From Cymodocea nodosa (lineage: Eukaryota; Streptophyta; Magnoliopsida; Alismatales; Cymodoceaceae), in the NCBI GenBank assembly GCA_036874045.1, contig CM072336.1, positions 14,069,001-14,133,000 on the forward strand: 64,000 bases of DNA. The letters are read 5' to 3'. The position numbers and the translations under genes were made by a program. This document shows, one piece after another, positions 6,499 to 54,600 of this stretch. The notes below the pieces were generated by a model that made no database searches, was not told where the DNA came from, and saw nothing but the letters and a program-made list of their open reading frames with translations. The first letter of the stretch is position 1; each line of letters opens with the position of its first letter.

Positions 6499-7713
6499 AA
6501 GATCATAAAACTTCTAGCCTTGGTTTGAAGTTGATGCTAGTATATTAAAGAGCAGATCAACTTACAAGTCTTGGTTCACGATTCTATAGGGAGAGGAGGC
6601 AAGATTATAAGTGATTAAATTTTCAGTAGTATAATCATGTTGCATGTAGTGACAAAAGTTTTTACTATCAATAGAGATTTTTACATTTCACCTTTCGCTC
6701 ATCTTCAAGAACATATCAAAACAAAAATACCAAAAATAACTAATTTTTTATGTTTACATTTAGTATTAAAGTGTTGTATTGTTTGTTTTGTATCATGATT
6801 AATGTTATCATTGTCAATTTTGTGAATGTTTTATGTTTGTTTGATTCAGAAAATAGAAAATAATTTTATTGTTTACTAAAATTGATTTATCTTGAATATT
6901 TAAAAATCATAATAGTTACTATTCGAAATATCTGAATGTTAGTATTGCTTAATGACAAATCTCATATTAACTAACATTAAAAAGCTTAATTGATGTTATT
7001 TACATTCTGTGGAACTACTTAATGGATGGTCGAATTCCCCTGTGAATAGTAGTATTTAACTATAAAGGTAGGCTCGAGGAGTTAACTTAAGTCCACAAGG
7101 TTAGTCCGTTGAGTTAGCTGTAACTCCACAAACTAGTCTGTTGAGTTAATAGTAACTCAACAAAGTGCTTAACTAAACACATATAAACTCCAATATAAAA
7201 ATTAAAATAGTACATAGTTCTTACTCAATCTTTATGAGATTGACTTGTACTTGCATACAAATACAATATACACTGTGTACTTGTAGTTAAAAATACAAAT
7301 TGGACTTAATATCTAATTTGTGTGAAAATTGTTTGTTTACTTCAAAAGAAATTATAAACATATAATTAAAGCAAACGAAATTCACCTAAACATGTTAGGG
7401 TAAGTAGTACAGGTGTGGAGTATGCCATAAGAAATCTATGTTAAATCGAAGGCTTGTTAACAGTAAATATCTGATAGATTTATTTTTTGGTAGGTTGTCA
7501 GACCTAAGTATTTGAAAAATATAGTTTCAGTTGGAAGCTTTGAGCTAACTATTCGAAAGTTAGAAGATTTTGGAGGGTTACTAGTTGTAACCATCCGGAA
7601 TGACTTAAAGGACACTTAAGTGGATGTTCAAATAGTTAAGAAGTCAAGTATCCGAAAAGCAAAGACTTAAGTAGATCTTCAGATAGTTAGTAGTAACTAT
7701 CCAAAAATCATAA

Positions 7714-8012
7714 GTTTTCGGAAGGTTAACAGCAGAACCTTCCGAAATGACTGAAGAGACACTTAAGTGAGTTTTCAGATAGTTAAGACAGTAACTATCT
7801 GAAAGACTTGCAGTTTTCAAAGAGTTAACGACAGAACCTTCCGAAATGTCTAAAGAGACACTTAAGTGAGTTTTCGGATAGTTAAGACAGTAACTATCTG
7901 AAAGACATGTAGTTTTTAGAGAGTTAACGGCAGAACCTTTCGAAAGGATAGAGAGAGAGAAGTAAGTGGCTTTTTAGACAGTTAAGTCAGTAACTATCCA
8001 AAATACTGAATC
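7714..8012 (+). repeat. 100-bp tandem repeat in the Copia A LTR, about three units
   Basis: Units start near 7714, 7814 and 7913. Each contains two hairpins (GGAAGGTTA...AACCTTCC type and GGATAGTTA...TAACTATC type) separated by ACACTTAAGTG. The 3' LTR has the same array at about 18776-19070. Known Tork elements (Tnt1, Tto1) also carry their enhancers as short LTR repeats. Confidence 0.75.
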
Positions 8013-8339
8013 TCTCTGAACAGTTAGCTTGCTACAGTACTGCCCATTAGAAAGAAGAATTTCTTCGGATAGTTAAGTTTGTAACTATCCGAAATGTTGT
8101 AGATTTCGGTAAGTTAGGAAGATAAGGCTTTGAAATTGAGAGTCCCTTCTTCGAAGCATTATTTCTCTACTGTAATGGCTTGAATGTAATTAAAGGTTTA
8201 TTAACCCTAAGTTGGGTAGTATATAAACTTTTATGATATTGTAAAACATTGCGATTGATTGTGTCGAAGCTCATAGAAGAACCCTCAACTCTACGTGGAC
8301 GTAGGTTGTTACTGAACCACGTAAATCTTGTGTCTTCAT

Positions 8340-11300
8340 TGTAGGATCGTATGGCTACACAAGAGGGGGGTGAATTGTGTTTTTCAATATTTTCAAATAT
8401 AATTGAAACTTTAAAACTCAAAACCAAGTCGAGACATTGTTTTCATAAAATCATTTTTATTCAAGGTTTCAATTACAATATACAATTCAATTCTCCTCAG
8501 AAATTGTAGATGTAATTATATCTCGATACCATGTATCATCTAAACAATTTCATAACTACAAACAGAGATAAATAATTTACGAAATTTAAAACATTTATCC
8601 TTGTTTAAGATCTTTCTTTTTCTTCTTCTTCTTCTCTTTCTTCTTCAGCAATTCTTCAGTGACGAATATCTTGTCTTTTTATGCTTCACTGAATTTGTTT
8701 TCTTCTGATACTTTAAATCTTCAGTGACGTAAATCTTACATTTTTATGCTTCACTGAATTTTCTTCCACCTGATACTTCAAATCTTCAGTGACATATATC
8801 TTACCTTTTTATGCTTCACTGAATTTTCTTCCACTTGAGAGATTTTCCCCGAAGAGGTGTTTTTGATCCCTGAAAGATTTTTCGTTTGATGTGTGTTCGT
8901 GTTTTCCCAGCACTACACTAGAAAAACTTGGATTTGTTACTTCTATTTTTACTTAGTTAATTTATCTTAATGCCTATTCTTTCTTTTAGAAGTAAACAAA
9001 TAACCTTTAATACAATTTAGATATTAATTCCAATTTGTACTTTAACTGCAAGTGCATAGTGTCTATTGTATCAGTGTGCAAGTACAGGTTGATCCCACAA
9101 GGAATTGCTGACGAATTTAAGAAATGTTTGATTGTGAACAATTCAAATTTATATTCAATAAGCACTCCGTTGAGTTACAGTTAACTCAACGGACTAAGTT
9201 CGTTGAATTATGGATAACTCAACGGACTATCCTCGTGGACTTAAGTTAACTCCACGAGCCTGTCTCTTCTTTATAATACTGCTAATTACAGAGGAATTCG
9301 GCCAACCATTGGGCGATTCCACAGATTGTAAATAACATCAATTAAGCTTTTTAATGTTAGTTAACATTGGATTTATCATTATGCAATACTAACATTCAGA
9401 TAATTCAAACAATAACCATTAAAATCTTTAAGTTGTTTTGTATGAACCAATTTCAGTAAACTGTAAAATTAAAACTAACATAAAACAATCATAAAATTGA
9501 TACAGATAACATTAATCACGATACAACACCAACAATACAACACTCAAATACAACATACAAACAAAGATAAATTGTTTTTGGTATTTTTATTTTGATGTGA
9601 TGGGCGAAAGGTGAAATCTAAAGTAATTTCACTTGATAGTAAATACTTCCGACACTACTTGCAACACGATTACACCACTAAAAATTGAACCACTTACAAT
9701 TCTGTCTCCTCTCCCTATAGAATCGCGAGTCCAGAATTGCAAGATGATCTCCTCTTCAGTATACAGGCATCAACCCGAAGCCAAGGCTAAAAGCTTTATG
9801 ATCTCCTGAAATATGAGTCAGCGCTTGGTGAAAATGTCTTCCCTTCCCACGACGTGATCACTCCTCACAATGGTTGTTAGACACTGTGTTTGGCTCGGAA
9901 TCGACCCGACATCAGGCAAGTATCCTCACATACTTCCGATGATTGGTGATTATGGTGGTGATACGATGGTTGGTGTGATACTTTGGAGAATTGTCGATAC
10001 TATTTGCAGAAAGCTCGGTGCTCCTCCTCTGTATACACTGGCCGTCCATCGATCACACCCTTTCTTTTTTTTCTTCTTTTCTTTTATATTTCTTCAGTGG
10101 TAACTGCTTCTGCTTGAATGGTCGGTTGGATTTCCTTCCTTCAGATCAACGGCAATGATTTCTTTCTCCCTACGCAATTGAATTCCTGCATGATACGTGT
10201 AAACGTGGTTTTTCCTTCCAACTATCTGTTCCTGCAACCGCTATAGTGGCATATTAGAAAATATATAGTCCGTGGAGTTACAGATAACTCAATGGACTTC
10301 CTTCGTTGATTTAACTATAAAACACGTGCAAAACTAACAACTTAAGTTTATAATGCTAACCTAACGCGTTGCCTTAGTGTATTTTCATGTAACTCAATGC
10401 GTGTAGTTATACTAACTTAACGAGTTATAACGTAAGTAAATCTACTAGCTCTTAACACGTGTCAGCAGTAGTTTAAACATAAAATAACATTCCGGAGAGT
10501 TACAAGTATAACTATCCGATGCTTAGATGCATTTTTGGATACTTAAGAATTTCACAGCCTGCAATTTACCGACAGTTCATAAATGTACTAAATTAACATT
10601 AATTCCCCAAAATTAAGCAGATTCTTCAATTAAAGCATATAACAGTGCAATTATAATATAATGGCTTAATTCTCATATGATAAGCTAAATATTATGCAAT
10701 TAACCATCATTTAACCGTTAATAATATGCACTTTTTCATTCTAAACAATGTGTAAGGATAATTTGATCAACGAGAATTCTATGCCTTTTATACTGTATCT
10801 TCATTTCATGCATATCCTCCATGTTTAATCACTACCAGTTTTCCACTTCTTCACGTCTTTTCTTTTTCCTTCATCGAAATACACACATTCTGACCCACGT
10901 TTACATTTCGAATTTTCTTTAATCATCAATCCTGGATCTCTGAAAAATTTCCTACAAAATAAACTTTCTCGTCCAAAATTTTTCATCAAGTATAATAAGA
11001 AGTCGTTACTTTAATGTTAACTAAACGAGTAACACAAGTATATATATAACTTAACGTTTTCAACTTAACGAGTTTCTCATGTGTCAATTCACTTGACAAG
11101 TATTATAGCTAACTCAACGAACTAACTCCATTGTGTTATGGATAACTCAACGAACTATCTCCGTTGTGTTACAATAACTTAACGAACCAGTAATATACAA
11201 ATGTTTTTATAATAAGAATTTTACCACGTGCAAAAAATAACAACTTAAGTTTGTAACACTAACCTAATGCGTTGCATTAGTGTTCAATATAGCAACTTAA

Positions 11301-11773: not shown

Positions 11774-11890
11774 TTCATTGTGTTATTTCTTCTTTTACTC
11801 TTCACTTCCAGTTTCGATGAGTTTAGAGGTGAGTGTTTCAATATCGTGCCATAGAAAGTTGACTGAATGATCCATTCCAATAGTAACAAC

Positions 11891-11902
11891 TGGTATCAAA
11901 GC
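11891..11902 (+). other. Primer binding site of Copia A
   Basis: TGGTATCAAAGC two bases after the 5' LTR; one mismatch to the complement of the initiator tRNA-Met 3' end (TGGTATCAGAGC), as in most plant Copia elements. Confidence 0.85.
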
Positions 11903-11924
11903 CGAATGTTCTTTAGTTTAACAG

Positions 11925-12655
11925 AATGGCAGACGATAGAAAGTTCAGGATCGAGAAGTTTGATGGTAAAGATTTTAGATACTAGAGGTCTCAGATTGAA
12001 GACTGTTTGTATTAGAAGGATCTTCATCAACCTTTGTTCGGAAGAAAACCAGAGAAGATGGATCAGGAAGAGTGGGAGTTACTAGACAAAAAAGCTCTAG
12101 GTCTCGTCATGTTGTCATTGGCAAGGAACATTCATTCTAACATTGCCAAGGAGAAAACAACAGCTGACTTGATGAAAGCTTTGTCCAACATGTATGAGAA
12201 GCCATCAACCGCCAACAAGGTATTTCTCATGCATAGATTATTTAATCTGAAAATGCATGAAAGTAGAAATGTAACAGACCACGTTAATGAGCTAAATACT
12301 ATTTTGAATCAACTGCATTTAGTAGATATAGTATTTGATGATGAAGTCAGGGCATTGATTTTATTATCCTCATTACTAGAAAGTTGGTCTCCTGTCGTGA
12401 CTAGTGTAAGTAGTTCACTAGGTCATGAGAAGCTCAAGATGAGTGACATCCGAGATTTAATTTTGAGTGAGGACATTCGCAGGAAAAGTGAATTATCAGC
12501 TTCAACTTCTACCTTTAATGTTGAAATTAGAGGGAGAAGTAAATCAAAACAATTTAAATCCAAAGGAAGGTCAAAGTACAAAGGTACCAGTAAAGTGAGA
12601 TCAGATATCAAATGTTGGAACTACAATCAATGGAGGCACTTCAAGTCATAGTGTA
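11925..12655 (+). pseudogene. Gag remnant of Copia A
   Basis: Opens with MADDRKFRIEKFDGKDF, the usual start of a Tork gag, continues through the retrotransposon gag core around 12034-12480 (the stretch with LFNLKMHESRNVTDHVNELN) and ends in a basic segment with a zinc-knuckle relic near 12615. In the living family this makes the RNA-packaging coat. Fossil. Confidence 0.8.
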
Positions 12656-12699
12656 AGGCTCTCAAGAAAGACAACAGAGGGAAGGAATCAAAAGGAGCA

Positions 12700-14157: not shown

Positions 14158-16808
14158 GTTTAGAATGAAAAAGTGCATATTATTAACGATTAAATGATGG
14201 TTAATTGCATAATATTTAGCTTATCATATGAGAATTAAGCCATTATGTTATAATTGCACTATTATATGCTTTAATTAAAGAATCTGCTTAATTTTGGGGA
14301 ATTAATGTTAATTTAGTACATTTCTGAATTATCGATAAGTTGCAGGCTGTGAAATTCTTAAGTATCCGAATTTTTTGATATTTCAGACAGTTATGTTTAA
14401 CATACCGAACATATTTTGGATAGTTATATTTAACAGACCGAACATGTATCGGATAGTTATGTTTAAATTGTCGAACAATTATGTTTTGAAAGAATATTTT
14501 ATTATTTTCTAAAGTACACGTGTCGAAACCATAATGCATGACTTAAGTGAACTTTCGATGAGTTATCTATAATTATCCGAAATTGCAGCTGGGCATCGGA
14601 TAGTTATATATGTAACTCTCTGAAATATCTTTTTATTTATAAAATAGCCGTGGACACGTGTCATGTTCTGGGAAAGTGACATAAGTGGATTTTTGGTGAG
14701 TTATCTCTAACTATCTGAAATTGCAGCTGAACATTAGATAGTTAGACCTGTAACTCTCCGAAATGTTTCTTTTATTATTAAACTACTGCTAACACCAAAC
14801 ATGTATCGAATAGTTATGTTTAAATTACCGAACAGTTATGTTTTGAAAGAATATTTTATTATTTTCTAAAGTACATGTGTCGAAACCATAATGCATGACT
14901 TAAGTGAACTTTTAGTGAGTTATCTATAACTATTTGAAATTACAACTAGGCATCGGATAGTTATATGTGTAACTCTCCGAAATATCTTTTATTTATAAAA
15001 TAGTTGTGGACACGTGTCATGTTCTGTGAAAGTGACTTAAGTGGATTTTCGATGAGTTATCTCTAACTATTCGAAATTGCAGCTGAGCATCGGATAGTTA
15101 GACCTGTAACTCTTCGAAATGTTTCTTTTATTATTAAACTACTGTTGGCACGTGTCGAGATCTGGTAGATTTACTTAAGTTATATATTAGTGAGTTATTT
15201 GTAACTATCTGAAATACATCTGGGCATCGGATAATTAAGTTTATAAGTATCCGAAATTGCATCTAGGCATCGGATAGTTAAGTTGTAAGTATCCGAAATG
15301 CACCTAAGCATCGAATAGTTAAATTTATGCAAGTGTTTTATAGTTAAATTAACGAAGAAAATCCGTTGAGTTATTTGTAACTCCATAGACTATTTATTTT
15401 CTAATATGCCACTATAGCGGTTGTAGGAACAAATAGTTGGAAGAAAAACCACGATTGCACGTATCACGTAGGAATTCACTCATCGAAGGGAGAAGAAATC
15501 ATCGTCGTTGATATGAATGAAGGAAATCCAACCGACCATTCAAGCAGAAGTAGTTACCATTGAAGAAATATAAAAGAAAAGAAGAAAAAGAAGTAAAGTG
15601 TGTGTGATTGATGGGTATGGCTAGTGTGTATAGAGGAGGAGCACCGAGCTTTCTATAGATAGTGTCAACAATTCTTTGAAGTACCACACCAACCATCATT
15701 ACCACCACCATAATCACCAACCATCGAAGGTTTGTGAGGATACTTTCTTGATGTCAGGTCGATTTCGAGCAAAACACAGTGCGTGACAACCATTGTGAGG
15801 AGTGAGCGCGTTGCAGGAAAGGAAGCCATTTTCACCAAGCACTGACTCATATCTCGGGAGATCGTAAAGCTTCTAGCTTTGGCTTTGGGTTGATGCCTGT
15901 ATGCTGAAGAGGAGATCATCTTGCAATTCTAGACTTGCGATTCTATAGGGAGAGGAGACATAATTGTAAGTGGTTTAATTTTCAGTGGTGTAATCGCGTC
16001 GTATGTAGTGACAGAAGTATTTACTGTCAATTGAGATTACTTTATATTTCACCTTTCGCCCATTTTCATGTTCATATTAAAACAAAAATACCAAAAACAA
16101 TTTATCTGTGTTTGTATTTTGTATTTGAGTGTTGTATTGTTTGTGTTGTATCGTGATTAATGTTATCTTTGTCAGTATTGTGATTGTTTTATGTTTGTTT
16201 TAGTTTTACAGTACTGAAATTGGTTCGTTCAAAAGACTTAAAGATTTTAATGGTTACTATTTGAATTATCTGAATGTTAGTATGCTTAATGATAAATCCA
16301 ATGTTTACTAACATTAAAGAGCTTAATTGATGTTATTTACAATTTGTGGAACCGCCCAATGGTTGGCCGAATTCCTCTGTAAATAGCAGTATTAAAAAGA
16401 AAAGGCAGGCTCGTGGAGTTAACTTAAGTCCATGATGTTAGTTTGTTGAGTTAGCCATAACTCAATGAACTTTGTCTATTGAGTTAACTGTAACTCAATG
16501 GAGAGCTTATTGAATATATAAATTTGATTGTTAACAAACAGACAATTTTAAATTCTTAAGCAATTCCCTGTGAGATCGACATGTACTTGCACACTGATAT
16601 AATAGACACTGTACACTTGTAATTAAAGTACAAATTGAAATTAATATCTAATTTGTATTAAAGGTTGTTTGTTTACTTCTAAAAGAAAAAGAATAGGCAT
16701 AAAGATAAATTAACTAAGTAAAAACAGAAGTTAGCAAATCCAAGTTTTTCTGGTGTATTGTTAGAGATCCAATTAGGTTTTCTAGTGTCGTGCTAGGTAA
16801 ACCAAACA
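14158..16808 (+). mobile_element. Athila-like solo LTR inside Copia A
   Basis: 2651 bp from TGTTTAGAATG to AACCAAACA, flanked by AACAT at 14153-14157 and 16809-16813. A TATA-like ATATAAAAG lies near 15570. It is longer than other copies (about 1.9-2.0 kb), partly because of an internal tandem duplication. The termini of this copy define the family: 5' TGTTT and 3' AAACA. Confidence 0.88.
14441..15154 (+). repeat. 357-bp tandem duplication in the Athila-like LTR
   Basis: AACATGTATCG starts at 14441 and again at 14798, and the following sequence runs parallel to the end of each unit (both end CTTTTATTATTAAACTACTG). Each unit has two ACTTAAGT-type hairpin modules and an ACGTGTC box. Confidence 0.8.
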
Positions 16809-18360: not shown

Positions 18361-18452
18361 AGAGTAGAACAGGTTAGATCTGCAGAATCTGTAAGCCAAG
18401 TGTAGAGATTGATTTTTCTTTTGATCATTGTGTCAAACTCCAAGTGGGAGAT

Positions 18453-19495
18453 TGTTAGGGCAAGCAGTATAGGTGTGGAGTATGCCACAAGAAATCCAAG
18501 TTAAATCGGAGGCTTGTTAACAGTAAATATCTAGCAGATTTATTTTTCGGTAGGTTATCAGACCTAAGTATCTGAAAAATATAGTTTCAGTCGGAGGCTT
18601 TAAGCTAACTATCCAAAAGTCAAAAGATTTCGGAGGGTTACTTGCTGTAACCATCTGGAATGACTTAAAGGACACTTAAGTGGATGTTCGGATAGTTAAG
18701 AAGCCAAGTATCCGAAAAGCAGAGACTTAAGTGGATCTTCGGATAGTTAGGCAGTAACTATCTGAAAATCATAAGTTTTCGGAAGGTTAACGATAGAACC
18801 TTTCGAAATGACTGAAGAGACACTTAAGTGAGTTTTCAGATAGTTAAGATAGTAACTATCTAAAAGATATGCAGTTTTCAAAGAGTTAATGGTAGAACCT
18901 TCCGAAATGACTGAAGAGACACTTAAGTGAGTTTTCGGATAGTTAAGACAGTAATTATCTGAAAGACATGCAGTTTTCGGAGAGTTAACGGTAGAACCTT
19001 CCGAAAGGATAGAGAGAGAGAAGTAAGTGGCTTTTCAGACAGTTAAGTTAGTAGAATCTCTCCAAATAGTTAACCTGCTATAGTACCGCCCATTAGAAAG
19101 AAGAATTTCTTTGGATAGTTAAGTCTGTAACTATTCGAAATGTTGTAGATTTCGGTAAGTTAAGAAGATAAGGCTCCAAAATTGAGAGTACCTTCTCCCA
19201 AAAATTATTTCTCTACTATAATGGCTTGAATGTAATTAAAGGTCTATTAACCCTAAGTTGGGTAGTATATAAACCTTTATGATGTTCTAAAACATTGCAG
19301 TTGATTGTGCTGAAGCTCATAGAAGAACCCTCAACTCTCTATGGACGTATGTTGTTGCTGAACCACATAAATTTTGTGTCTTCATTGTGTTATTTCTTCT
19401 TTTACTCTTCACTTCCAGTTTCAGTGAGTTTAGAGGTGAGTGTTTTAGTATCGTGCCATAGAAAGTTGATTGAATGATCTGTTCCAATAGTGACA
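18453..19495 (+). repeat. 3' LTR of Copia A
   Basis: 1043 bp, TGTTAGGG to TGACA, preceded by the purine-rich tract CCAAGTGGGAGAT. Parallels the interrupted 5' LTR over its whole length. Confidence 0.88.
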
Positions 19496-20641: not shown

Positions 20642-21966
20642 TGTTTAGAATGAAAAAGTGCATAATATTAAGGGTTAAATGATGGTTAATTACATAATAT
20701 TTAGCTTATCATATAAGAATTAAGCCATTATGTCATAATTGCACTATTACATGCTTTAATGAAAGAATCTACATAATTTCAGGATATTAACGATTAATTA
20801 AGTACATTTTTGAACTGTCAGCAAGTTGAAGGTTTTTAATTCTTAAGTATCTGAATTTTCTGTTATTTCAGAGAGTTATATTGCATGTACTAGACAGTTA
20901 TGTTTTAAATGCTTAAAGAATATTTTATTATTTCCTAGAGTACACGTGTTGAAACATCAATGCATGACTTAAGTGGATTTTTAGTAAGTTATCTATTAAC
21001 TATCCGAAATGCATCTAGGCATTGGATAGTTAGACTCATAAATATCCGAAATATCTGAACTCGTTAAGTTAGAATTATGCATGTGTTGAATTTAAATGCT
21101 TTAGTATATCACGTGAGTTGCACATGTATAACTCGTTAAGTTAGCATAACTGTACACGTTGAGTTACATGAACACGTACTAAGGTAACACGATATGTTAG
21201 TAGCTTATTTCTTTATTGCATGTGTTTTATAGTTAAATCAACGAAGTAAGTCTATTGAGTTATCTATAACTCCACGGACCATATATTTTCTAATATGCTA
21301 CTGTAGTAGTTATAGAAACAGGACATTCAAAGGAAAACCACGATTGCACGTATCACATAGGAATTCACTTGTGGATGAAAAAGAAATCACCATTGTTGAT
21401 AGGAACGAAGGAAATCCAACCAATCATTTAAGTAGAAGCAGTTACTACTGAAAGAAATATAAAAGAAGAGAAAAAAAGATGAAGAAAGTGTGTGTGCAGA
21501 GGTGGAGAATCGCGCTAATTGCAAAAAGCGTCGGAAGTTCCCTGAAGCTCCACACTACCACCAAAATCACCAACCATCAGAGGTTTATGAGGATACTTTC
21601 CTGATGTTAGGTCGATTTCGAGCCAAACACGGTTCTTGACAACCATTGTGAGGAATGATCGTGTTGCGGGAAGGGAAGCCATTTTTACCAAGTACCGACT
21701 CATATCTCAAGAGATCATAAAGCTTCTAGCCTCCGTTTCGAGTTGATGCCAATATGTTGAAGAGATCATCTTGCAATTTTGGACTCACGATTCTATAGGG
21801 AGAGGAGGCAAGATTGTAAGTGATTAAGTTTTCAATGGTGTAATTGCGTCACATGTAATGACAAAAGTTTTTATTGTCGATAGAGATTTTTACATTTCAC
21901 CTTTCATTCATCTTCAGGAACATATCAACACAAAAATACCAAAAACAACAAATTATCTGTGTTTAC

Positions 21967-23351
21967 TATTAGGATTGGTAGGCTCACTAGAGAGGGGGTG
22001 AATGGTGAAGGTGTGAAAGTTTTACTTCTTTTAATTTAGAATCGATTGATTCTAATTGTCAGTGAGTTGAAATTGATTAAAATGATGCAAAAGTAGTAAA
22101 TAGAAAGGAGCACAAGACAATTTTAGGTGGTTCACCAACTCGGCTAGTCCACCCCCAAGATTCACTTGGGCTACACTAAGTATACGAGTACTTAAAACAC
22201 TTGCTTTCAGGTTGAAGTAAGAACCAACACTTAGAGCTTTCAGGTATAAGCTCAACAACCAACCTTTCTTTGAGCTTTCAAGTTGAAGCTCTCAACCAAT
22301 AGAGAGTTTTCAGGTTGAAACTCACAAACCAACACTTTGAACTTTTAACACAGAGTTTGAGCATAGTGAGCTTTTGTGCTATAGAAGACTTAAGATTGTT
22401 TCTAAATGATGCAGACTTGAGTGTATCTCTGAAAGTGTTTGTAGCTCATAGTATATGATAATCATTTTTCGTTGTATTGATCTTCTCTTCACTTGTCATA
22501 TTTATACCAAGAGGTATAACAATCATATTCCCTTCCAACAGATGTATTCTGCTGTACTTGCTAAGAAATCAGACCTAAATATGGTAAGTTACCGTTTAGG
22601 GAGGTATTTTAAGATACCCTTTCGATTTCTTGGGTTTTTCGGAGGCTTAACCATGTAACTCTCCGAAAATCAATAGTAACCTACCGAAAAGTCACTTAAG
22701 TCTTTCTATCATGTAGGATTTCAAATCGTACATATGAGCTGTCATTCGATCGGATACTTGCAATTATAACTTACCGAACTGTCCTTTGATTATCGGATGG
22801 TTAGCTATAGTAACCCTCCGAAATCCTTCTTTAAGTTTCTGATTGCTTTCTTATTTCAGCACGTGCATAATAGAATAACTTAAGTTTTGGATGGTTATAA
22901 CTATAACTCACTGAAACTCTTCAAATTTCAGATAGTTAGCTTTCTACCTTTCCGTAAAGCCTTTTTAAACTTTTGTTCTAGATTTCTGCACGTGGGAAAT
23001 TCAATGACTTAAGTTTCGGATAGTTAACTACAATAACTTTCCGATTCTTCATACAACCATCTTTCTAACTCTCTCAAGGCCTTCTACTTTCAAATAGTTA
23101 TCCTTCTAACTATCCAATAAAGTTTCTACTGCTTAATACTGACTCTTTAGATACTTAAGCCTGATAACTCACCAAAAATTTCTCTTCCAAATGGTTAAGC
23201 CTAGTAACCTTCTGAAATCCTATTTATCTCTTGCAGCACATACTAAACTATTTGTAATGACTTTATCTACCTTCTGAGCTATCAAATCTGTGAAATACAA
23301 AATGTTTCCTCACACAGGTTTTTGCATTATCAAAATACTAGGGTCCTAACA
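21967..23351 (-). repeat. 3' LTR of S1 (left end)
   Basis: Ends GGGTCCTAACA at 23351, followed by an antisense polypurine tract (ATCTCCCCCTTTTTGAT). Carries several ACTTAAGT plus hairpin modules between 22670 and 23220 and two CACGTG boxes near 22860 and 22990. Confidence 0.88.
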
Positions 23352-23781
23352 ATCTCCCCCTTTTTGATAATGACAAAATCATTTACATTTATTTACATGT
23401 ATTTTACTCCCTAGATTGTTTTTATACATTTAGTCATACAGAGCAAAGATTTACCGTGAATACAATAAAGTGGAGTTAATTCCTCCCCCTAACTGTGTGC
23501 TGGAAATAGTGTAATTTCCATATTCTTCTCTCCCTGTCTATGTGTTGGAAATAGTGTAATTTCCATATTCTTCTCCCCCTATCTATGTGCTGGGATTTTC
23601 CTTCCCCTTTTATACTTCTCCCTCTATCTATGCTGGAAATACTGTAATTTCCATATTCTTCTCCCCCTTTTTGTCATTATATAAAAAGGTGACTTGTAAA
23701 ACTGATATGTCCTGCAGAAGTACATTTTAGCAGAAAGTAAGCTCCCATATGATGAGCTTGAGGAATAATAGATGAAAGCAT

Positions 23782-30569: not shown

Positions 30570-32073
30570 TGTTAAGACCTTAAGGCTTACTAGAGGGAGG
30601 GTGAATGGTAATAATTCGTTTCTTAACCTTTTAGAAGTAGTTTAATGTAAAGAGATAACAAACACACAATAAAAGAATTCACACGGAGATTTTAGGTGGT
30701 TCACCACTAACGGCTAGTCCACCCCCAAGGGATACTTGAGCTTCACTAAACTCTTACAAACTTACAATCACTTGCTTTAAGGTTTAAGCAAGAATTAACC
30801 AACCATTCACTTGAGCTTCCTTGTCGAAGCTTCAATCAATCCTTTCTCTGAAGTTTTGATCCGTGTACTTCAGTAAACACTAGCTTGTGAGCAACAGAGT
30901 TGAGTGCATGATGAGCTTCTAAAATTCAGTCTGTAACTGTTGAAGATGATTTGATCTCTAAAGCTTTTCTTCTATTGAGCTTGGTGTAAGTGTGTATATG
31001 AGCAAAAAGCTATCTAAATCCGTTGTCTGTATCTTAAATATATACCTAACATGTGTAACAATTATATTTTCTTCCAACGGATGTATTCTACTGTACTTGA
31101 TTAGACTTCAGTCCCAAATACGATAAGTTACTGTTTAGAAAGTTATTTCAAGATGTCCTTCTGATTTTCTTAACCTTTCAAATAGTTAGCTGTGTAACTC
31201 TCCGAAGAATATCTGTAACTCATCGAAAGATCACTTAAACCTTTCTGCCATGTAGGATTCCAGAATATATACTGCAAGCTGTCATTCAATCGGATACTTA
31301 TAACTGTAACTTATCGAACAGTTATGTAACTATCGGATAGTTGGCTACAGTAACCCTCCGTTAACTTTTCGATTGCTTTAATTCAGCACGTGCATAAAAG
31401 ACTGACTTAAGTTTCAGATGGTTATCCTTGTAACTCACCGAAACGCTTCAGGATTTCGGATAGTTATCTTTCTAACTCTTCGAAAACTTATTTGAGCTTC
31501 TTTCTGGAATTCTGCACGTGGGAAATTCAGTGACTTAAGATTTGGATAGTTAAACTGTAACTCACCGAAACTCTCTTTGAGATTTCAGATAGTTATTTAA
31601 CTCTCTGATTTTTCCTTTAAACTTTTGACTACTAACTTCTCCATTCTGCACGTGCGTAATAGGATAACTTAAGTTCTGGAAAGTTATACCTGTAACTCAC
31701 CAAAAAACTCGAATAGTTATCTAACTCTCTGAAAAGAAAACTCAGATAGTTATCTAACTCTTCGACAAGTCCTTTAAGCTTCCGTTCTGTATTTCTACAC
31801 GTGATTAATTGAATGACTTAACTTTCGGATAGTTATACTTGTAACTCTCCGAAACGTCATTTAAGCTTTCGGATAGTTAACTCCTTAACTATCCAATCAT
31901 TCAATCCTTCTTAACTGTCCGATTATCTGTGGCAACACATTCTGAGATTTACTGCAACCTGTTTGCTACTTCGATTTGTCTGTCTTCTGATCCTTTTGCT
32001 GTACAGACTAATCTTGATAAATACAATTCAAAACCTTACAATGATTTTTGCATTATCAAAATCTAGAGGTCCT
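30570..32073 (-). mobile_element. SIRE-type LTR of a second family at the S1 junction
   Basis: Begins TGTTAAGACCTTAAGG and runs to a typical SIRE LTR margin (CATTATCAAAATCTAGAGG) near 32070. The sequence to its right is S1 leader rather than the rest of the interrupted S1 LTR, so its borders are not those of a simple insertion. Rich in ACTTAAGT, CACGTG and CGGATAGTTA-type motifs between 31150 and 31920. Confidence 0.75.
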
Positions 32074-32205: not shown

Positions 32206-33591
32206 TGTTAGGATCGGTAGGCTCACTAGAGGGGGGGTGAATGGTGAAGGTATGAAAGTTTTACTTCTTTTAATTTAGAATCGATTGATTCTAATTATTA
32301 ATGAGTTGAAATTGATTAAAATGATGCAAAAGCAATAAATAGAAAGGAACACAAGACAATTTTAGGTGGTTCACCAACTCGGCTAGTCCACCCCCAAGAT
32401 TCACTTGGGCTACACTAAGTATACGAGTACTTACAACACTTGCTTTCAGGTTGAAGTAAGAATCAACACTTAGAGCTTTTAGGTATAAGCTCAACAACCA
32501 GCCTTTCTTTGAGCTTTCAGGTTGAAGCTCTCAACCAATAAAGAGTTTTCAGGTTGAAAATCACAAACCAACACTTTAAACTTTTAACACAGAGTTTGAG
32601 CGTAGGGAGCTTTTGTGCTGTAGAAGACTTGAGATTGTTTCTGAATGATGCAGACTTGAGTGTATCTCTGAAAGTGTTTGTAGCTCACAGTATATGATAA
32701 TCGTTTTTCGTTGTATTGATCTTCTCTTCACTTTTCATATTTATACCAAGAGGTATAACAATCATATTCTCTTCCAACAGATGTATTCTATTGTACTTGC
32801 TAAGAAATTAGACCTAAATATGGTAAGTTACCATTCAGGGAGGTATTTTAAGACACCCTTCCGATTTCTTGGGTTTTTTGGAGGCTTAGCCATGTAACTC
32901 TTCGGAAATCAATAGTAACTTATTGAAAAGTCACTTAAGTCTTTCTGTCATGTAGGATTTCAGATCGTACATATAAGCTATCATTCGATCAGATACTTGC
33001 AACTGTAACTTACTGAACTGTCCTTTGACTATTAGATAGTTAGCTACAATAACCCTCCGAAATCCTTCTTGAAGTTTTCGACTACTTTCTTATTTCAACA
33101 CGTGCATAATAGAATAACTTAAGTTTTTGATGGTTATAATTGTAACTCACCGAAACTCTTCAAATTTCGGATAGTTAGCTTTCTACCTTTCCGAAAACAT
33201 TTTTAAACTTCTGTTCTGGATTTCTACACGTGGGAAATTCAATAACTTAAGTTTCGAATAGTTAGCTATAGTAACTTTCTGATTCTTCATACAACCATCT
33301 TTCTAACTCTCTAAAGGCCTTCTACTTTCGGATAGTTATCCTTCTAACTGTTCGATAAAGTTTCTACTACTTAATACTGACCCTTTGGATACTTAAGCCT
33401 GATAACTCACCGAAAATTTATCTCTTTCGGATGGTTAAGCCTAGTAACCTTCCGAAATCCTGTTTATCTCTTGTAGCACATACTAAACTATCTGTAATGA
33501 CTTTATCTGCCTTCTGAACTATCAAATCTGTGAAATACAAAATATTTCCTCACACAGGTTTTTGCATTATCAAAATACTAGGGTCCTAACA
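32206..33591 (-). repeat. 5' LTR of S1 (right end)
   Basis: 1386 bp, TGTTAGG to CCTAACA, inverted termini, matching the left LTR in length to within one base. Confidence 0.9.
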
Positions 33592-36040: not shown

Positions 36041-36129
36041 ACATGTCCAATCATTATTGCTTTAGATTTAAAAGAGGATCAAATTGCTAAATTAAAAGAT
36101 GTAGTAAAAACTTATAAAGAGGCAATAAG

Positions 36130-41400: not shown

Positions 41401-42075
41401 AGACTCATTTCTGGAGCCTTTCATCCCAACTCTTTGAAAGTTGCAGCATTTCAGATAGTTACAGAAGTTAACTATCCAAAGAAATTCTTCTCTCTACATT
41501 TGTTATAATGGGCAGATACTGTAGCAAGCTAACTATTTGGAGAGATTCTTGCCTTTTGGATAGTTACTGTCTTAACTATCCAAAAAATCACTTAAGTATC
41601 TCTTGAGTCCTTTCAGAAGGTTCTACCCGTAGCTTTTCAAAAAATTCTTGCCTTACAAATAGTTACTGTCTTAACTATCTGAAAAAACCACTTAAGTATC
41701 TCTTGAGTCTTTTCAGAAGGTTGTAGCTGTAACCTTCCAAAAACTCATGACTTTTAGATAGTTGTTGTCCTAACTATCTAAAGATTCACTTAAGTCCTTG
41801 ACTTTCGAATACTTAGCTTCTTAACTATCCGAAGATCTACTTAAGTCCCTAACTTTCGAATACTTAGCTTCTTAACTATCCGAAGATCCACTTAAGTGTC
41901 CTATAAGTCATTTCCGATGGTTCTACCTATAACCTTCTGAAATCTCCTAACTTTCGAATAGTTAGCATAAAGCCTTCCGAAAACATTAATCTGCCGGAGA
42001 CTTATAGTTAACAAGCTTTCAACTAAACTTGGACATCTTGTGGCAGACTTCATACCTGTACTACTTACCCTAACA
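38483..42075 (-). mobile_element. Copia B: Tork-like element in antisense, incomplete
   Basis: Minus-sense order from the right: 5' LTR 42075-41093 (983 bp), primer site (TAGTATCAAAGC) near 41079-41090, gag about 41065-40320, protease and integrase about 40280-39120, start of reverse transcriptase to 38483. The 3' half of the element is absent. It is a near relative of Copia A, part by part. The left border has neither LTR end nor duplication and abuts E1. Fossil with many breaks. Confidence 0.83.
41093..42075 (-). repeat. 5' LTR of Copia B
   Basis: Begins (minus sense) TGTTAGGGTAAGTAGTACAG and ends CAAACA next to the primer site. Its U3 has the same hairpin modules as Copia A (41440-41990), but its last part differs from the Copia A LTR. 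Confidence 0.82.
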
Positions 42076-44758: not shown

Positions 44759-45150
44759 TTTAAAATATCAAACACTTATAGATATATTCTTGAACTATCT
44801 AAAATATCAAACGTTCCTAGATATGAGTTTAAATTATTTAAAATATTAAATGCTTCTAGATATGAGTCTAAACTATTTAACATATCAAATACTCCTAGAA
44901 ATGAGTATAAACTTTCCACTACATCATGTTGCCTTATTATCATTTTGAATTATTTAATATTAGTTTGTACTTTTTGCTCATAATGAATAAAATTACATTT
45001 TTGATATAATATGTGTATTTAATATAATTGACACGATGCAAATGAGGGGCATCCTTCTTTTAAATTTGTAAAGTGTAGAATTACTGGTTAATTCTTGAGA
45101 GGTCCTAGATATTACAAGTAAATAAATTCATATTTTTTTAATAACCAAGC
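44759..45150. other. End of the short-repeat array and AT-rich sequence
   Basis: 44759-44930 continues the 42076-43069 array (TATCAAACGTTCCTAGATATGAG type units); the rest shows no recognisable gene or repeat. Confidence 0.5.
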
Positions 45151-47375: not shown

Positions 47376-49603
47376 CTAGACGTTGAGAAGGACATTGCAT
47401 AGTTCTGTGGGAGTGGAGAAGAAGGGGCTGTGATCACTGTCCAAGGAATGCACTTGAGCGGGAGGCCAGAGATGGATCATGGTATCTTGCTGCGCTGGTG
47501 TGACGATCTGATCCTGCATCGCCTTCACGTAGATCCGCCTAACCTTGTTGGCCACCTCGTCATTGTAGAATCGCGCTTCTTGGAACACTACGATCCCTGG
47601 GGTGGGGCGCAGCAACATTGAAGCCATAATTTGATCCTGATGAAGCAATGAAACCCATGCATCCACATCTTATCCTTTCTTCGTTGTAAATACACACACA
47701 TATATATACATACAAAGCACGAGAGAGAGAAAGAGAAACCAAGAAAGGCAAACCAAATTGATGTCGGACATAACAATGATTGTATTATATCTATCATACC
47801 TCTTCAGGGCTCATGTTGTATAAAAATTTGCGTTGGTATTCCTCTTTCATGATCCCTCTTGGTGTCTTCATCTTGTTGATGTCCTCTCTTTTAAATAATT
47901 GCGGAGATACCTGCATAATGTATTGTATTAAATCAATTGGAAATTGATAGAATCATGTCGTGGCGTATATCTAACTTAATTCACGGCTTCTCCTCACCGA
48001 TCCAAACAAATGATGTATGGTAAGTGTCTCATAATCCAATCATTATTTCTATGCACAATTTTACCTAAAAATTCGATTTTTCCATATCTAAAATCAGTAC
48101 GTCGATCCTTGTATAATATTCCACGTTAACATTTGTGTTTAATTAAAAATCAAAATGTAATTTGAAATGAGACGTTAATTTTAATGCTAGAAAAAAAGTG
48201 TTTAGAGTGTCTCTAAATTAAAGAGTTATCCAATGAGAATATATAAAAGACAAGAAAATGAAGAAAAAAAATAAGAGAAAAATGGATCGGCTAGACTGGT
48301 CAAGTGTTCGGTCAACCCAATTGAGGACCAATAGATGAGTGCGCTTAGGTCGGTTGTTGCCTGTTGACTGGTCCATCGAAGGTGAATAAATTATTGATGA
48401 GGACTGTTAATGATAATAATATAAACAACTACCTCAAAATTAAATGAAAAAAGTTCATTTTTGTATTAATGTATATTTTATTTCAAACTAGTCTATGTAA
48501 AGTTATTGTTCTAATTAATACTTTTTTATTTGTAGCATTCTTTAGACGGTACAAGCTTCTTCTTTTTTCCTTTTCTGGTAGATGTGTAAAATTATCAAGA
48601 TTTTTTGATACTAATTAATTAATTATTAACGATTTGTATCTTTTTTACAAGAAAAATAAAGTAGATGATAATTAGATAAGACAGAATATCCACTGCAGAG
48701 CATGTGCACCTTGTACGTCGTGGAGTTTTCCTTCTCACCTCACAACCTTTTTTACTGCAACAGGACTATTATAATAAGGTAATAAGGTAGCGTAGTCCAT
48801 CCTGTAACCCTTTTTTGGTAAAAGAGTTAAATAAAATTAAAGAAAAAACACTACTATGAAATGACCAAAAATTTGGCAAGAGAATAAGTGACGGTAAAAT
48901 CGAAAAAACAACAAAAAAGCCTAGAAGTCAAGTAGAGCAGCCACAAAGCAAGAAGTAGAGGTGGATGCAGAAAGGTCAGTGAGAAACTAGACTTGTGATT
49001 TACAGAGTAAGAAAGCTTGATTGCAAGAGAAAGGGAACCTTTAAACACATCTAGTTTGAAATGGTTGGAGGGTTTGGGAGGGGGAGGAGGAGGAGGAGGA
49101 GGAGGAGGAAGAGATAATAAGCTTACGGCTTTGGCATCTTCTTCCGTGCAAAAGCCGTTGCGAAGCATGTTCGCTGTGACGTAGACCGCGGCGTCGATCT
49201 TCGGGCCGAACTCGTGGATGGCGTACGTGACGCTGAGCCCTCCGGCGCTATGACCGACGAGAACCACCTGGGCAGAGCATGGTAGAATGGATCGACGTCA
49301 GATCGAATCGGAAGGAAGAAGCAGTCGTTGTTGATTGTCAATTGGTTGGCGTACCTTGTCACCGTCCTCCGGTAGCCCCGCGAGCAGGTCGGTGAGTGGT
49401 TTGCTGTACTGCTCGAAGGTGCGGACGGAGCTGGGGTCCGTAGCATCCACACCAGCGCCCACGAGGTCAAGGCACGTCACCTTATGCCCCGCCTTCTCCA
49501 GCACGCATCGCACTTTGTACCAACACCACGCGCCGTGACCCGCGCCGTGCACCAGCACAAAGCGTTTCGGCTTCCTTCTTTCATTCAACCCTTTGCTCTC
49601 CAT
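47376..49603 (-). CDS. Methylesterase, MES17-like (SABP2/hydroxynitrile lyase family)
   Basis: Alpha/beta-hydrolase that removes methyl groups from small carboxylic hormone esters; Arabidopsis MES17, the nearest relative I recognise, acts on methyl-IAA. Four exons, all phase 0 with GT-AG junctions: 49355-49603, 49127-49267, 47800-47910, 47376-47636, together 253 residues (family about 255-280). The oxyanion motif VLVHGAGHGAWCWY starts near residue 16; the catalytic triad is Ser90 (GHSAGG), Asp209 (MQDQIV) and His236 (SDHSPFF). There is no signal peptide, so a cytosolic enzyme is expected. Intron 2 (1216 bp) carries a TCC microsatellite near its donor. The stretch just before exon 3 is about 8 residues shorter than in MES17. 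The substrate is inferred from family only. It is the only host gene in the right half of the window. Confidence 0.9.
49080..49112 (-). repeat. (TCC)n microsatellite in methylesterase intron 2
   Basis: Nine or so GGA units on the plus strand (TCC in the sense of the gene), only about 15-45 bases after the intron 2 donor at 49126. A likely polymorphic marker; a splicing effect is possible but not shown. Confidence 0.85.
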
Positions 49604-49860
49604 CCCAACCGTTGAAACACGAAGCAGCCTGTGCGCGTTTCCGTGCTTGGAACAGACGCAGGCGTGAAGAATAACACAGGCTCCGTGGTCTGCACGAAAG
49701 GAAGAGAGAAGAGAAAGACGAAGAAGGGAAGAAAAAGTCGCCCTTCACGGGCTGCTGTGGCGTGCAAGTTTTTTGTGGACAGCGAGCATTATCCTCTTAC
49801 TTCATCAACCGACTATAACTGGATATATCCCTTATTTTATCGTTAGGATGGGGTAGTACT
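49604..49860 (-). promoter_or_regulatory. 5' flank and presumed promoter of the methylesterase
   Basis: Less AT-rich than the DNA beyond 49860. A weak TATA candidate (GATATATCC, minus sense) lies near 49821-49829, about 220 bases upstream of the ATG. No other clear element recognised. Confidence 0.45.
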
Positions 49861-50480: not shown

Positions 50481-50760
50481 TTATAAGCACAATTGGAAAT
50501 TAATGACTAGAGTTAAAGTACTAGTAATGAGTAAATACAATGAACCTAATTGTTTATTGAAATCAACTATAAATCTTTTATGCTGCATTCATAACTACTT
50601 CCATATTTATTCTATTAATTCAATTTTGTTATTCTAACATTTGTAATTGAGAAATACTATAGTTACGATCAGTTGGAAGTGTATTGCCAATTTAGAAACA
50701 ACGTGATGGATGTGGATTAAATCTCAGCCGCAAGATTTGAAATTATAGTTAGAGAATTGG

Positions 50761-51690
50761 TGTAAAAGGGCTAAATGTGCACTTTTACATATATTTATTC
50801 ATGCATATTATGGTCTTGATTGATATATTTTATATGTTCTTATGTGAAATTACATGTTAATCCTGTGTATAGAACATGCATGTAATTTGAGCTTTATTAG
50901 CGTAAATTGCACAAAATTAAGAGAACCCCATTTACTTATATTGCAAAATTAAATGAATCAATAGGAAATCTTAGTTATAATTATTTACGTTTTGTTTCTA
51001 TTATTTGAATTTCGTCTTGTCACAAATGTGCTTATTTTAATGTTGCAATGCATTACTGTAAATTATTTATACAACCATGTCATATGTGACACGATTTTGT
51101 ATAAGTTTTGTTGGTGGAAAAATAGGTGAATGATGCAGATTAGCTACAGAACATTGGATGCAAGATCACGATGATCAAACTCTCCTATAAATAACCCATC
51201 TAGGGCTTTGTGCAAAGGATCTCTTCCTTCTCTCTTGCATGAGCTATAGCCATCGCACTCCTCCTCCATCGTTGAGCTAGGCAACTGGCCTCTCTTCCTT
51301 TGTTTGGTGCTTGGTTGGACTGTACAACTTGAAGGCTCACACCCTCACAAGGTCCTTCAGTTGTAGGACGTTGGGTGCGTAGACAGAAGGCAAAATGGAG
51401 GTGGGTGCACCCTCATGAAGGGTGGTGTGGGAGCTTCAACCAGTGTTTTGTTCTCTATAAATCTAGGTGCCAGAAAAGTGGAGAACTACAAACAAAGGAG
51501 GAAAGAAACTTTATCAGAATTGTGGCCATACATGTTTCTAGAATTGCAGCCTAGGTGAATCCTATCATTGGTGACTCGTTGGGGGGTGACATCCTTGGTG
51601 GGAGCAGAGTGTGTGGTTTACATCAGCCTGGGAGCAACTGTAAGGAGTGTGTAGTGCATCAAGGTATAAAGAAGTTGGATTAAGTCCTTA
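50761..51690 (+). mobile_element. Partial Gypsy-type LTR
   Basis: Begins TGTAAAAGGG and follows the layout of the solo LTR at 27371: similar early region, then TATAAATAACC at about 51184 and a CT-rich leader. It is cut at 51691 by the S2 LTR; its end is not in the window. Confidence 0.65.
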
Positions 51691-54600
51691 TGTTAGTTCA
51701 TTATTTATAGGTTTAATTTTGATGATGAAAAACTAGGTACTTAGTATTAAATAAAATATTTTTAGCACTTACAATATTTACTTTGAAAATACTTAACTAT
51801 TTTATATTTAGTAACCTTTGAAAAAAAATTTCGGAAAGTTTAAATTCTACTTAAGTGTATTATTGGAGAGTTACACTCCAAATCACTGAAAATTCAAGTA
51901 AATTGGATAGTTTGTTTTTCATTGTGTATGATCAAAAAGTTTGCTCTGAAACTATCTAAAAATACTTAACTATCAGTGAGTTCAATTCTTTCTTCATTCA
52001 GATTGTTTTATTGCTAAGTATCTTAAATGTTTTTGTTTTCGAAGAGTTCAGTTTTATATTTCGAACAGTTTGGTTTTCAATGTTTTAAATGCATTTCGTT
52101 TACTATTTCCTAAAGGACATGTATCATGATCTTAACACATGACTTAAGTTATCTTTCAAAAGGTTATAAATGTAACTATTCGAAATGCTTTAAGTATCGA
52201 AGAGTTACATTCTACATGTATTTGAAACACTCTTTTACTATTGGATAGTTTGTTTTTAAAGTTTTAAACTATTGTTTATAGAAGGACATGTGTTTTAATT
52301 TAAATGCATGACTTAAGTAGTCCTTCGAAAGGTTTGCTCTAAACTATCTGAAATGCTTTTGAATATCGAAAGGTTTTTATCCTAAGTCTCTAATTTTTTG
52401 AAAGCTTCTGATCTTTTTGTTTTTAAAGAATCTACTATTGTTATTTGTTAACTTACTATTTTAGCAAGATATCTTTTTGATTACAAATCTAATTTAATGA
52501 TGATTGAGCATTATTGGAAATGGATTGACACACAAGGAATCTAACTATTTCAGAGTCCTTTCTAGAAATAGAAATCTTGGAGAAAATAGAAAAATAGTAT
52601 TACAAACAATAGAAGAATATACAGAACACATAGAAGGAGATAAGTTTTAGCAATTCTGCAAACTTTTGGAAGATTCGTCTACAACAACCATTGAAGATTA
52701 AATCCTATAGATTAATCTAGAATTCTCCTAGAGCTTCAGCAATCGACTTCTTCATAGGAGTTTTTCATTTCTGTTATGTGTTTTGAATTATTTTGAGTCA
52801 TAGACTCTTGAGCTTAAACCTGTTTCTTAAAATTCTAAAAAACCCTAGCTTACAAGGGTGTTGTGAGTATACCTTCACAATGTTGGGGCCTTGGTGAAGA
52901 GAGTGAAGTGTAATACTTCACTTGCTTAAGATGGGAGTCTTGAGTGCACAAAGTTGGTGCTTTGTGCAAGGTTGTTATTTAGCTTATAAAAACAACAATT
53001 GTAGGGTTGTTGTTTAGCCCGTGAAAAACAGCAATTGTAAGGTTGTTGCTTAGCCTTCAAAAGCAACTTGATTTAGGTTTGTGCTAAGCCTTGAAAGTAC
53101 TTAGTGAATTCTCAAGATTGTAGCCTTGAGGAGTGGACTACCTAGTTTGGGGAACCACTATAAATTTCCTATGTCCCTTTATTTCTTCATTTACTATTTT
53201 AAAATCACTTTAATTAAGGTTCATTAGTGTCTCTTGCTTTCGAGAATAATTTAAAAGTAATTAAAATTTTACTAGGACACTATTCACCCTCCCTTTAGTG
53301 TGCCATTTAATCCCATCAAGTGGTATCAAAGTAAGGTTATCTCTATGATAGATTTAAGTAATCTGAAATTAATGGCAGAGGGTCAACATGTTCACATACT
53401 TTCATTATTTGATGGTAACAACTATGGATTTTGGAAAAATAAGATGACTAACTTTTTAAAATCCATGGATGTGAAAGTATGGAGAGTAGTTATTCATGAA
53501 ATACAACTTCCAACTATTCTAAAGGACATGTGGACTAATGAAGATGAGAAAAAGATTCAAATAGATGCTAAAGGAATGAATGCACTAACTTGTGCACTCA
53601 CTATTGACATTTATAACAAGATATCTGCTTGTTCTACTGCATATGAAGCCTAGCAAGCCATGGAAATTACTTATGAAAGCACAAATGAAGTTAAGGATAC
53701 TAAAATCAGCATTTTGCTGAGAAAATATGAAATGTTCAAGATGAAAGAGAATGAGAGTATTAATGATCTCATATCTCATTTCATAGAGATCATAAATGGA
53801 CTGAAAAACATTGGGAAAGAATTTCCCATGAAGGAACTAGTTATCAAAGTCTTGAGAACCTAAATAAAGATTGAAAAGCTAAGGCTACATCTCTTCAAGA
53901 CTCCAAGGACATGAGGACTTTCACTCTAGAAGATCTTACTAGCAATCTATTAGGCTATGAGACATAGTTAAATGATTGGTGTAGGATCATTGTATCACAA
54001 GAGGGGGAGTGAATTGTGTCTTTAATAATTAAAATTATTAGCAGATAAAACAAGAGCACAAAACACTCGTAAATAAAATTCTATTCTCTATAAACTTTTA
54101 AAGAAAGAATTTACAATATCTTTTCAGCTCAATTCCCTTTCTATCAGTTTGATACAGTAATGTCCGATATACAATTCAAATAGAAAATGAAGTCCTTATT
54201 CAAAGCTAAATTCGAATTGTATAAAACCTGATTTTTATGTACGTAGCTCCTTTTCCTTTTTTTTACTTAGCTTTTGTATCTCTTCTCTAGTTGTCAAATT
54301 TCCAGACTTTTTGCGTTTGCAGCTTTTTTTTTGAAATTGCTTGGAATTCCAAACTTCTTCTAATGTTGGAGAATTTTTCTAGATTTGATATGTAGTTGAA
54401 TATTCAGATTTGATATTTGAGATTGTGATTGAATATTAAGACTTGATCTTTCAGTTTATGATTGGGGATTGGGATGATCGTAATGTAGCTCGTACTCTCT
54501 ATTTTTAGTAGTCAAACTCTAACTTCACGTTCAGCATGTTCATCCACTTAATTCATAATCTATAATCCACGTACTAATTTCAAATTCAAATTATCTACGA

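Follow-up and report, generated by a model that had tools for sequence, protein, structure and literature searches.

The long terminal repeats (LTRs) of three retrotransposon lineages, in both the Copia and the Gypsy superfamilies, share a composite motif in a 64,000-nucleotide stretch of the Cymodocea nodosa genome (assembly GCA_036874045.1, contig CM072336.1, positions 14,069,001 to 14,133,000; hereafter the window). The shared motif is real, lies far above chance and has a largely fixed geometry. It consists, in order, of ACTTAAGT, 4 bases, a 13-base left arm TTTCGGATAGTTA, 4–6 bases and a right arm TAACTATCCGAAA, and is about 44 base pairs (bp) long. All of our findings concern this one window of one plant. 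We give roughly an even chance to the explanation that the composite is a directional module of the U3 part of LTRs, which is read by a host factor and has been spread in part by U3 exchange. A host sequence-specific DNA-binding protein, or two, would dock on the paired half-sites as a dimer and a second protein contact would be made at ACTTAAGT beside them, after which the bound protein would drive LTR transcription, with tandem copies raising occupancy. The module would have spread partly through exchange of U3 segments between families and then have been duplicated separately in each family.

By self-comparison, Pfam and primer-site patterns, LTR retrotransposons of plant type lie nested in one another across the window. 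An earlier reading of the same letters, made from the sequence only, had placed the motif in five unrelated families. We find only three lineages, namely Copia A, an Athila-like Gypsy lineage and a SIRE-type lineage, because the SIRE LTRs are related to one another. The Athila label rests on the type of primer site, and the names SIRE and Tork follow the earlier reading. What had been called a second SIRE family, at 31.4 kb, is a divergent relative (S1c) of the SIRE-type element S1, to which it is 96–97% identical across the final 362 bp of its LTR and about 75% identical in U3. This near-identical end joined to a diverged U3 suggests that S1c arose by recombination between subfamilies. S2, a further SIRE-type LTR, aligns with S1 at the LTR end and in the gag region. 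Copia A and the SIRE-type lineage are distant within Copia, since their reverse transcriptase pieces are only 40% identical over 124 positions.

Enrichment of the motif in LTRs

All five sites cited in the sequence-only reading were found in the sequence, and the enrichment over shuffled controls that it had named as support for its claim is seen across lineages. In the window, the half-site TAACTATCCGAAA has 129 matches with at most 2 mismatches, versus a mean of 2.53 and a maximum of 6 in 100 shuffles, and ACTTAAGT has 45 matches versus 2.82 in shuffles. Pairs of GTTA and TAAC number 31 at a gap of 6 and 27 at a gap of 4, versus about 2 each in 20 shuffles; 17 of the 27 gap-4 pairs represent a second palindrome (half-site TAACTCAACGGA), and 16 of those 17 are in Athila LTRs.

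Four groups, among which S1 and S2 counted separately despite both being SIRE-type, were each scanned with a weight matrix trained on the remaining three. At 10 bits, each of the 13 LTR intervals (3–26 sites per LTR) scored above all 200 shuffles, and S2 had 5 sites where 0.17 were expected. At 8 bits this held for 12 of the 13, the interval of Athila-like LTR c (Gc) being equalled by 1 of 200 shuffles. In an unseeded count of 11-mers (5 shuffles each), the motif was the commonest word in five of eight LTRs (CA2, CA3, Gd, S1a and S1c); Gf was topped by the second palindrome, S2 had nothing above shuffles and S3 had another word first. The arrays extend past the five cited examples to the 13 LTR intervals and a weaker fourteenth at 43080–44757.

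The motif is confined to LTRs in the regions scanned. Six internal regions totalling 20,051 bases (11890–14156, 16809–18452, 23350–30207, 34230–38472, 38473–41091 and 61581–64000) held no site at 10 bits and two at 8 bits, and the S2 internal piece held none and one, respectively. When all bases outside the LTR list were pooled there were 26 sites at 8 bits versus 8.5 in shuffles (maximum of 20 shuffles, 17), of which 12 lie at 42.1–44.8 kb, a region occupied by S3, another SIRE-type LTR, and by tandem repeats, and five lie in an inverted repeat at 53980–57766. A short motif repeated above chance within LTRs is the pattern of a U3 enhancer repeat.

Geometry of the composite

Composites were accepted when the left arm, with at most 3 mismatches, lay at offset 4 from ACTTAAGT; the right arm was allowed at most 4 mismatches. 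A left arm at offset exactly 4 accompanies 28 of the 45 ACTTAAGT sites (12 in Copia A, 11 in Athila, three in S2 and two in S1), and 26 of these 28 also have the right arm after a gap of 4–6, the two without it being S1 half-composites. All 28 are in element sense. In 200 shuffles the expectation was 0.005 composites at offset 4 and 0.08 at any offset from -2 to 20. Copies within one lineage are not independent, and the weight of this result lies in the agreement of the three lineages.

Six S1 ACTTAAGT sites, which make up six of the eight S1 composites, overlap the arm by one base (offset -1) and are antisense. Four Athila sites are at offset 11, beside the second palindrome near the LTR end, one Copia A site is at offset 5, and six sites fit no class. 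Copia A also has nine matches at offset 13 and four at offset 7, which come from the adjacent hairpins on the opposite side. A spacing of 5–10 bases between ACTTAAGT and CGGATAGTTA had been proposed, and it describes most copies, in which it is a nearly constant 7, but not the six antisense S1 copies, where it is only 2 bases; two of the cited sites (22878 and 31405) are among these six. The proposed half-site gap of 3–8 bases fits nearly all of 69 pairs with starts 15–20 apart (a gap of 6 in 44, 7 in 10, 4 in seven and 5 in five), the exceptions being three pairs at a gap of 2. In Athila, Copia A and S1, though not S2, the centres of adjacent hairpins are recurrently 40–44 bp apart, and a spacing of 57–58 bp recurs in Copia A and is seen once in S1. 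Every one of the six Athila and three S1-type intervals contains CACGTG, which had been said often to sit nearby; the three intervals of Copia A lack it, as do S2 and S3.

Exchange, descent or convergence

The sequence-only reading had named shared LTRs by simple common descent as an explanation that would undo its claim, and a masked comparison gives no support to simple LTR homology between lineages. Half-sites with up to 4 mismatches, ACTTAAGT and CACGTG were masked, which covered 20–49% of the 8 sequences and hid some spacer. No pair across Copia A, Athila and the SIRE-type lineage, S2–Athila included, then aligned better than E = 0.085, and eight within-lineage pairs stayed at 4.5e-4 or better. 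Without the mask, S2 and the Athila-like LTRs are collinear over 148–203 bp at 67–69% identity, the one extended stretch shared between lineages.

We also compared LTRs in which only the spacers had been shuffled. None of 100 shuffles reached the score of Gf–S2 (z 3.8), Gd–S2 (z 2.8), S1c–S2 (z 2.8) or Gf–CA2 (z 3.8), whereas 34 of 100 reached that of Gd–CA2; within-lineage controls gave z of about 12 in the matching direction. There were 22 such cross rows, 18 of them between lineages and three of these 18 at 0/100, and only one of the ten rows with CA2 (Copia A) reached 0/100. Among the 64 spacers separating adjacent hairpins, the 18 of length 10 (17 distinct) agreed weakly for Athila–S2 (p 0.028) and S1–S2 (p 0.014), with one spacer each, and showed no agreement for the four other pairs. 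Exchange of LTR segments, one of two origins offered in the sequence-only reading, is therefore likely between S2 and the Athila-like LTRs, as judged from an ordered stretch of about 190 bp together with spacers more alike than shuffled ones, both Athila copies tested beating 100 of 100 shuffled controls; the direction of such a transfer we can only infer. For Copia A neither exchange nor common descent of the array has such support, its spacers being mostly without excess similarity, though offset and direction are shared.

The other origin offered was convergence, in which each lineage would have built the composite alone, with one host factor complex demanding the geometry and no exchange taking place. 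The failure of the masked LTRs to align is what this predicts, and it is in keeping with the 18 of 22 cross rows in which spacers are unexceptional, with the opposite direction and offset -1 of six of the eight S1 composites, and with the nearest relatives of the gap-6 units, which lie in the unit's own lineage for 38 of 51 and in another lineage or tied for 13. Convergence alone does not readily account for up to 203 bp shared between S2 and Athila-like LTRs with spacers included, for the offset of 4 and the direction common to lineages, or for the best cross-lineage units, which match at 30 of 32 positions (Athila–Copia A) and 29 of 32 (Athila–S1c), some loops being identical between lineages. 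We consider it unlikely. The own-lineage nearest relatives and the mixed spacer results imply that the arrays were amplified separately in each lineage, building on either an ancestral module or a constraint common to them.

Paired DNA sites or RNA hairpins

Among 85 distinct pairs of arms compared at 13 positions, 275 changes were one-sided and 45 were the same change on both sides, where about 30 would be expected from independent change; the excess of double changes is concentrated at arm positions 5 and 8. Since the arms change mostly on one side, paired protein sites on DNA are favoured over an RNA stem, and the arms would be half-sites kept to a single consensus, as when a protein dimer binds DNA. 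Identity between arms does exceed that in a within-family permutation, by 0.27 of 13 (p 0.006), and some pairing constraint or mild gene conversion may be present. A shared asymmetry between left and right arm types, which seemed real in some Athila and S1 units, was dropped on finding mixed profiles.

The U3 copy at the RNA 3' end could instead fold into hairpins for packaging, processing or small-RNA production. All six units that were folded are stabler than the shuffle mean (z -2.2 to -7.8), although the S2 unit was equalled by 6 of 200 shuffles and one Athila unit by one, and the slight excess of arm identity points the same way. Despite these good single-unit folds, the stems show little of the compensatory change seen in a structured RNA hairpin, and an RNA role would leave ACTTAAGT, the fixed offset and the half-sites with no partner (14 of 98 at up to 1 mismatch) unexplained. 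We rank the RNA stem low as the main function and regard this explanation as very improbable.

Decay of the motif

Differences between paired LTRs are nearly all transitions, both in the motif (24 of 24 in Copia A and 25 of 27 in S1) and in spacers (30 of 33 and 31 of 33). Over 196 sites the CCG of the motif is replaced chiefly by T and A (position 9 C.71/T.27; position 10 G.79/A.21). This replacement is as expected for methylated cytosine, and the motif-bearing copies are probably old and silenced. Such decay would also fit an anti-silencing target like that of VANC, at which an element- or host-encoded binder removes methylation and other families are free riders, and the arrays, like VANC targets, repeat a short motif in tandem outside the coding parts of mobile elements. 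No candidate binder was seen among the 30 of 61 open frames scanned against Pfam, though a binder could lie elsewhere; moreover, VANC belongs to VANDAL DNA transposons, and the likeness is drawn from descriptions of its targets. An anti-silencing target is, in our judgement, a distinctly unlikely explanation.

It is also improbable that the arrays have no regulatory role and reflect neutral minisatellite growth or a palindromic insertion target. Array length does differ between copies, there are tandem duplications of 99 and 137–138 bp, and divergence is about as fast in the motif as in the spacer. Palindromes are preferred by some plant integrases, for example that of Tos17, which recognises ANGTT-5-bp-AACNT (PMC6911290). 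Neutral growth, however, would not give several lineages one motif with a common offset and direction, and gaps of 4 and 6 put GTT to AAC 6 or 8 apart rather than 5, a spacing at odds with the Tos17 core, for which we rejected the integrase-target palindrome.

Weighing the favoured explanation

Several results weigh against a directional, host-read U3 module that was spread partly by exchange. The matrix seed was the consensus from the earlier note. Most S1 composites use a different offset and direction, the S2–Athila similarity is lost once motifs are masked (the mask being generous), spacer similarity is unexceptional in 18 of the 22 cross rows (a hit being 0/100, uncorrected), the support for exchange does not extend to Copia A, and the arms are slightly more alike than permutation predicts. 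In related LTRs the motif was better conserved than the spacer in seven of ten comparisons (two by 0.2 points) and less well in three, which leaves a stronger constraint on the motif unclear. Finally, the array of Athila-like LTR f is more than 1 kb upstream of a TATA-like match at +1626, which is far for a promoter-proximal enhancer, TATA-like matches being frequent. A single TATA-like match occurs in each of the three Copia A intervals, S1a and S1b, where the arrays are wholly upstream of it; the Athila, S1c and S2 intervals have several, some within arrays, whereas no such match occurs in the 766-bp piece of LTR a.

From the letters and their arrangement we infer protein binding, dimerisation and enhancer activity, for which a MYB protein may be a candidate, TAACT and GGATA resembling MYB-type sites. 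A wider proposal, which we put forward tentatively and with some doubt, is that a mobile control module of about 44 bp crosses superfamilies by U3 exchange and places Copia, Gypsy and SIRE-type elements under a single regulator, which would be either an activator of the host or an anti-silencing protein that was stolen. If this is true, unrelated families of one plant would be switched on together. Were Copia and Gypsy to have a composite of fixed geometry in common, a single switch would serve unrelated retrotransposons, and such switches would be open to exchange. The exact letters and spacing allow a search of any plant genome and can serve as bait for the protein, so that co-activation across families can be tested.

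Distribution of the arrays

The Copia A 5' LTR (7393–8342, resuming at about 11774–11889; plus strand) has its array at 7546..8116, in 99-bp repeats, with offset-4 composites at 7614, 7665, 7761 and 7860. The 3' LTR (18453 to about 19461; plus strand) has the same array at 18565..19162, with composites at 18674, 18725, 18822 and 18921, and a third, divergent Copia A LTR (about 42076–41092; minus strand) has one at 41449..41964. The copia-type gag of Copia A (12016–12651) and its RVT_2 domain (16718–17572) were identified with Pfam.

The longest array, at 14359..15298 on the plus strand, belongs to Athila-like LTR d (14157–16808), which sits inside Copia A internal sequence; it consists of 137–138-bp repeats, with composites at 14541, 14898, 15035 and 15173. 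LTR b (6496–4545) carries a minus-strand array at 6011..6475 (composites 6193, 6330 and 6468) and LTR a (3779–4544, resuming at 6500–7370) a plus-strand array at 4095..4318 (composites 4095 and 4233). Short plus-strand arrays are found in LTR e (20644–21966, resuming at 33591 to about 34229), at 20866..21051 with a composite at 20967, and in LTR f (59545–61580), at 59741..59948 with a composite at 59864, where 59741–59929 aligns with S2. In LTR c (10749–8905; minus strand) a remnant array is left at 10490..10545. The element that has LTR e as its 5' LTR carries an Athila-type primer-like site at 34235, a second such site being at 61585, and Athila-like Gypsy pieces of reverse transcriptase, RNase H and integrase lie at 36.6–38.3 kb. 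By eye, the apparent 3' ends of copies d and c are preceded, at a distance of a few bases, by a degenerate stretch resembling a primer site, which is unusual for a plain solo LTR.

Element S1 (33590–21967; minus strand) is inserted in Athila-like LTR e, with TTTAC on both flanks by eye, and contains the extra divergent LTR S1c. Its 3' LTR (23349–21967) has a minus-strand array at 22656..23119, with antisense offset -1 composites at 22878 and 23007 and a sense half-composite at 22694; its 5' LTR (33590–32208) has one at 32933..33457, with antisense composites at 33117 and 33245 and a sense half-composite at 32933. The S1c array, also on the minus strand, is at 31176..31879 with antisense composites at 31405 and 31667; the S1c bounds (about 32075–30208) were set by eye and the scanned intervals ended at 31950 or 31990. 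On the 5' side of S1, 30192–33590 holds two consecutive stretches of LTR plus primer site, of which the inner LTR is S1c. S2 (about 51690–53316; plus strand; primer site 53321) has an array at 51829..52353 with composites at 51849, 52142 and 52311, and 52015–52207 aligns with Athila-like U3. S3, a further SIRE-type LTR (43080–44757; minus strand) whose boundaries come from similarity to S1 only, has a weak, decayed motif (six sites at 8 bits, three at 10 bits).

The second palindromes, about 33 bp apart, form a set near the end of the Athila-like LTRs (7065–7175, 4840–4955, 9155–9260, 16402–16510, 33905–34015 and 61195–61305). In LTR f they lie just downstream of a TATAAATA-like sequence. The first stem of the set contains ACTTAAGT, with one base altered in copy b, and the consensus fold of the six copies has three hairpins, with changes on both sides in 3 of 36 pairs. 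In contrast to the upstream array, this second set may have a role in the RNA leader.

Other features of the window

The S3 LTR is flanked, at 42076–42365 and 44758–44913, by tandem repeats that have a period of 39 (and 47), contain the words TTTTAGATA and AACTATCT and are possibly one array split by the S3 insertion. An inverted repeat of about 1.2 kb (arms 53980–55209 and 56560–57766, 77% identical) holds two and three half-sites at 10 bits in its arms, numbers that 1 and 0 of 100 shuffles, respectively, equalled. Each of the 30 open frames of at least 85 amino acids that were scanned was searched separately; 14 had no match, and the others matched gag/pol domains, alpha/beta hydrolase pieces or, below cutoff, domains such as RIMB1_N and BFN_dom. 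Two adjoining minus-strand frames at 48854–49744 match alpha/beta hydrolases, one of them below the curated cutoff, and the first resembles plant hydroxynitrile lyases, polyneuridine-aldehyde esterase and salicylic acid-binding protein 2; they are a probable host gene or gene remnant. ARAGORN found no transfer RNA genes in the window.

Comparison with known systems

Topic searches of the open-licence literature returned no description of the composite in titles or abstracts, and the matches listed in a search with the motif letters concern primers and other organisms (e.g. porcine circovirus), none of them an LTR. Segment 7533–8160 had no plasmid match, viral contigs contained neither the exact hairpin nor the composite pattern, and one Copia A polymerase frame had no relative among viral contigs. 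In prokaryote genomes the composite pattern had one exact match, in a Flavicella contig, where arithmetic from its 19 fixed letters predicts about two.

LTR segments are known to move between kinds of retrotransposon by LTR swapping, as in soybean. The known cases involve autonomous and non-autonomous partners, whereas the window has a U3 stretch common to a SIRE-type Copia and an Athila-like Gypsy LTR. The 13-bp element of Tto1 is reportedly bound by MYB proteins. Both it and the BII boxes of Tnt1 are known as features of single Copia families and are not known to be shared with Gypsy, unlike the window motif, to which they are likened by description. Like that motif they are sites in LTRs, and the Tnt1 boxes are described as binding defence-induced factors (PMC3316501). 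The targets of VANC are described as a short tandem motif in non-coding parts of mobile elements (PMC5735166, PMC12844716), which is like the window; VANDALs, however, are DNA transposons with their own binder, and none was found among the window frames scanned.

Similar to our arrays are the heat elements of several Brassicaceae COPIA families (ONSEN, COPIA37, TERESTRA and ROMANIAT5), which are described as short repeated host-factor sites in the LTRs of several families, gained repeatedly, in ONSEN via duplication of a proto-site (PMC5059998). As described there, those are nGAAn heat-shock sites in COPIA families, whereas the window has a long composite in both Copia and Gypsy, mostly with a fixed offset and direction. 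A composite spanning Copia and Gypsy would thus go beyond the heat elements described in Copia families.

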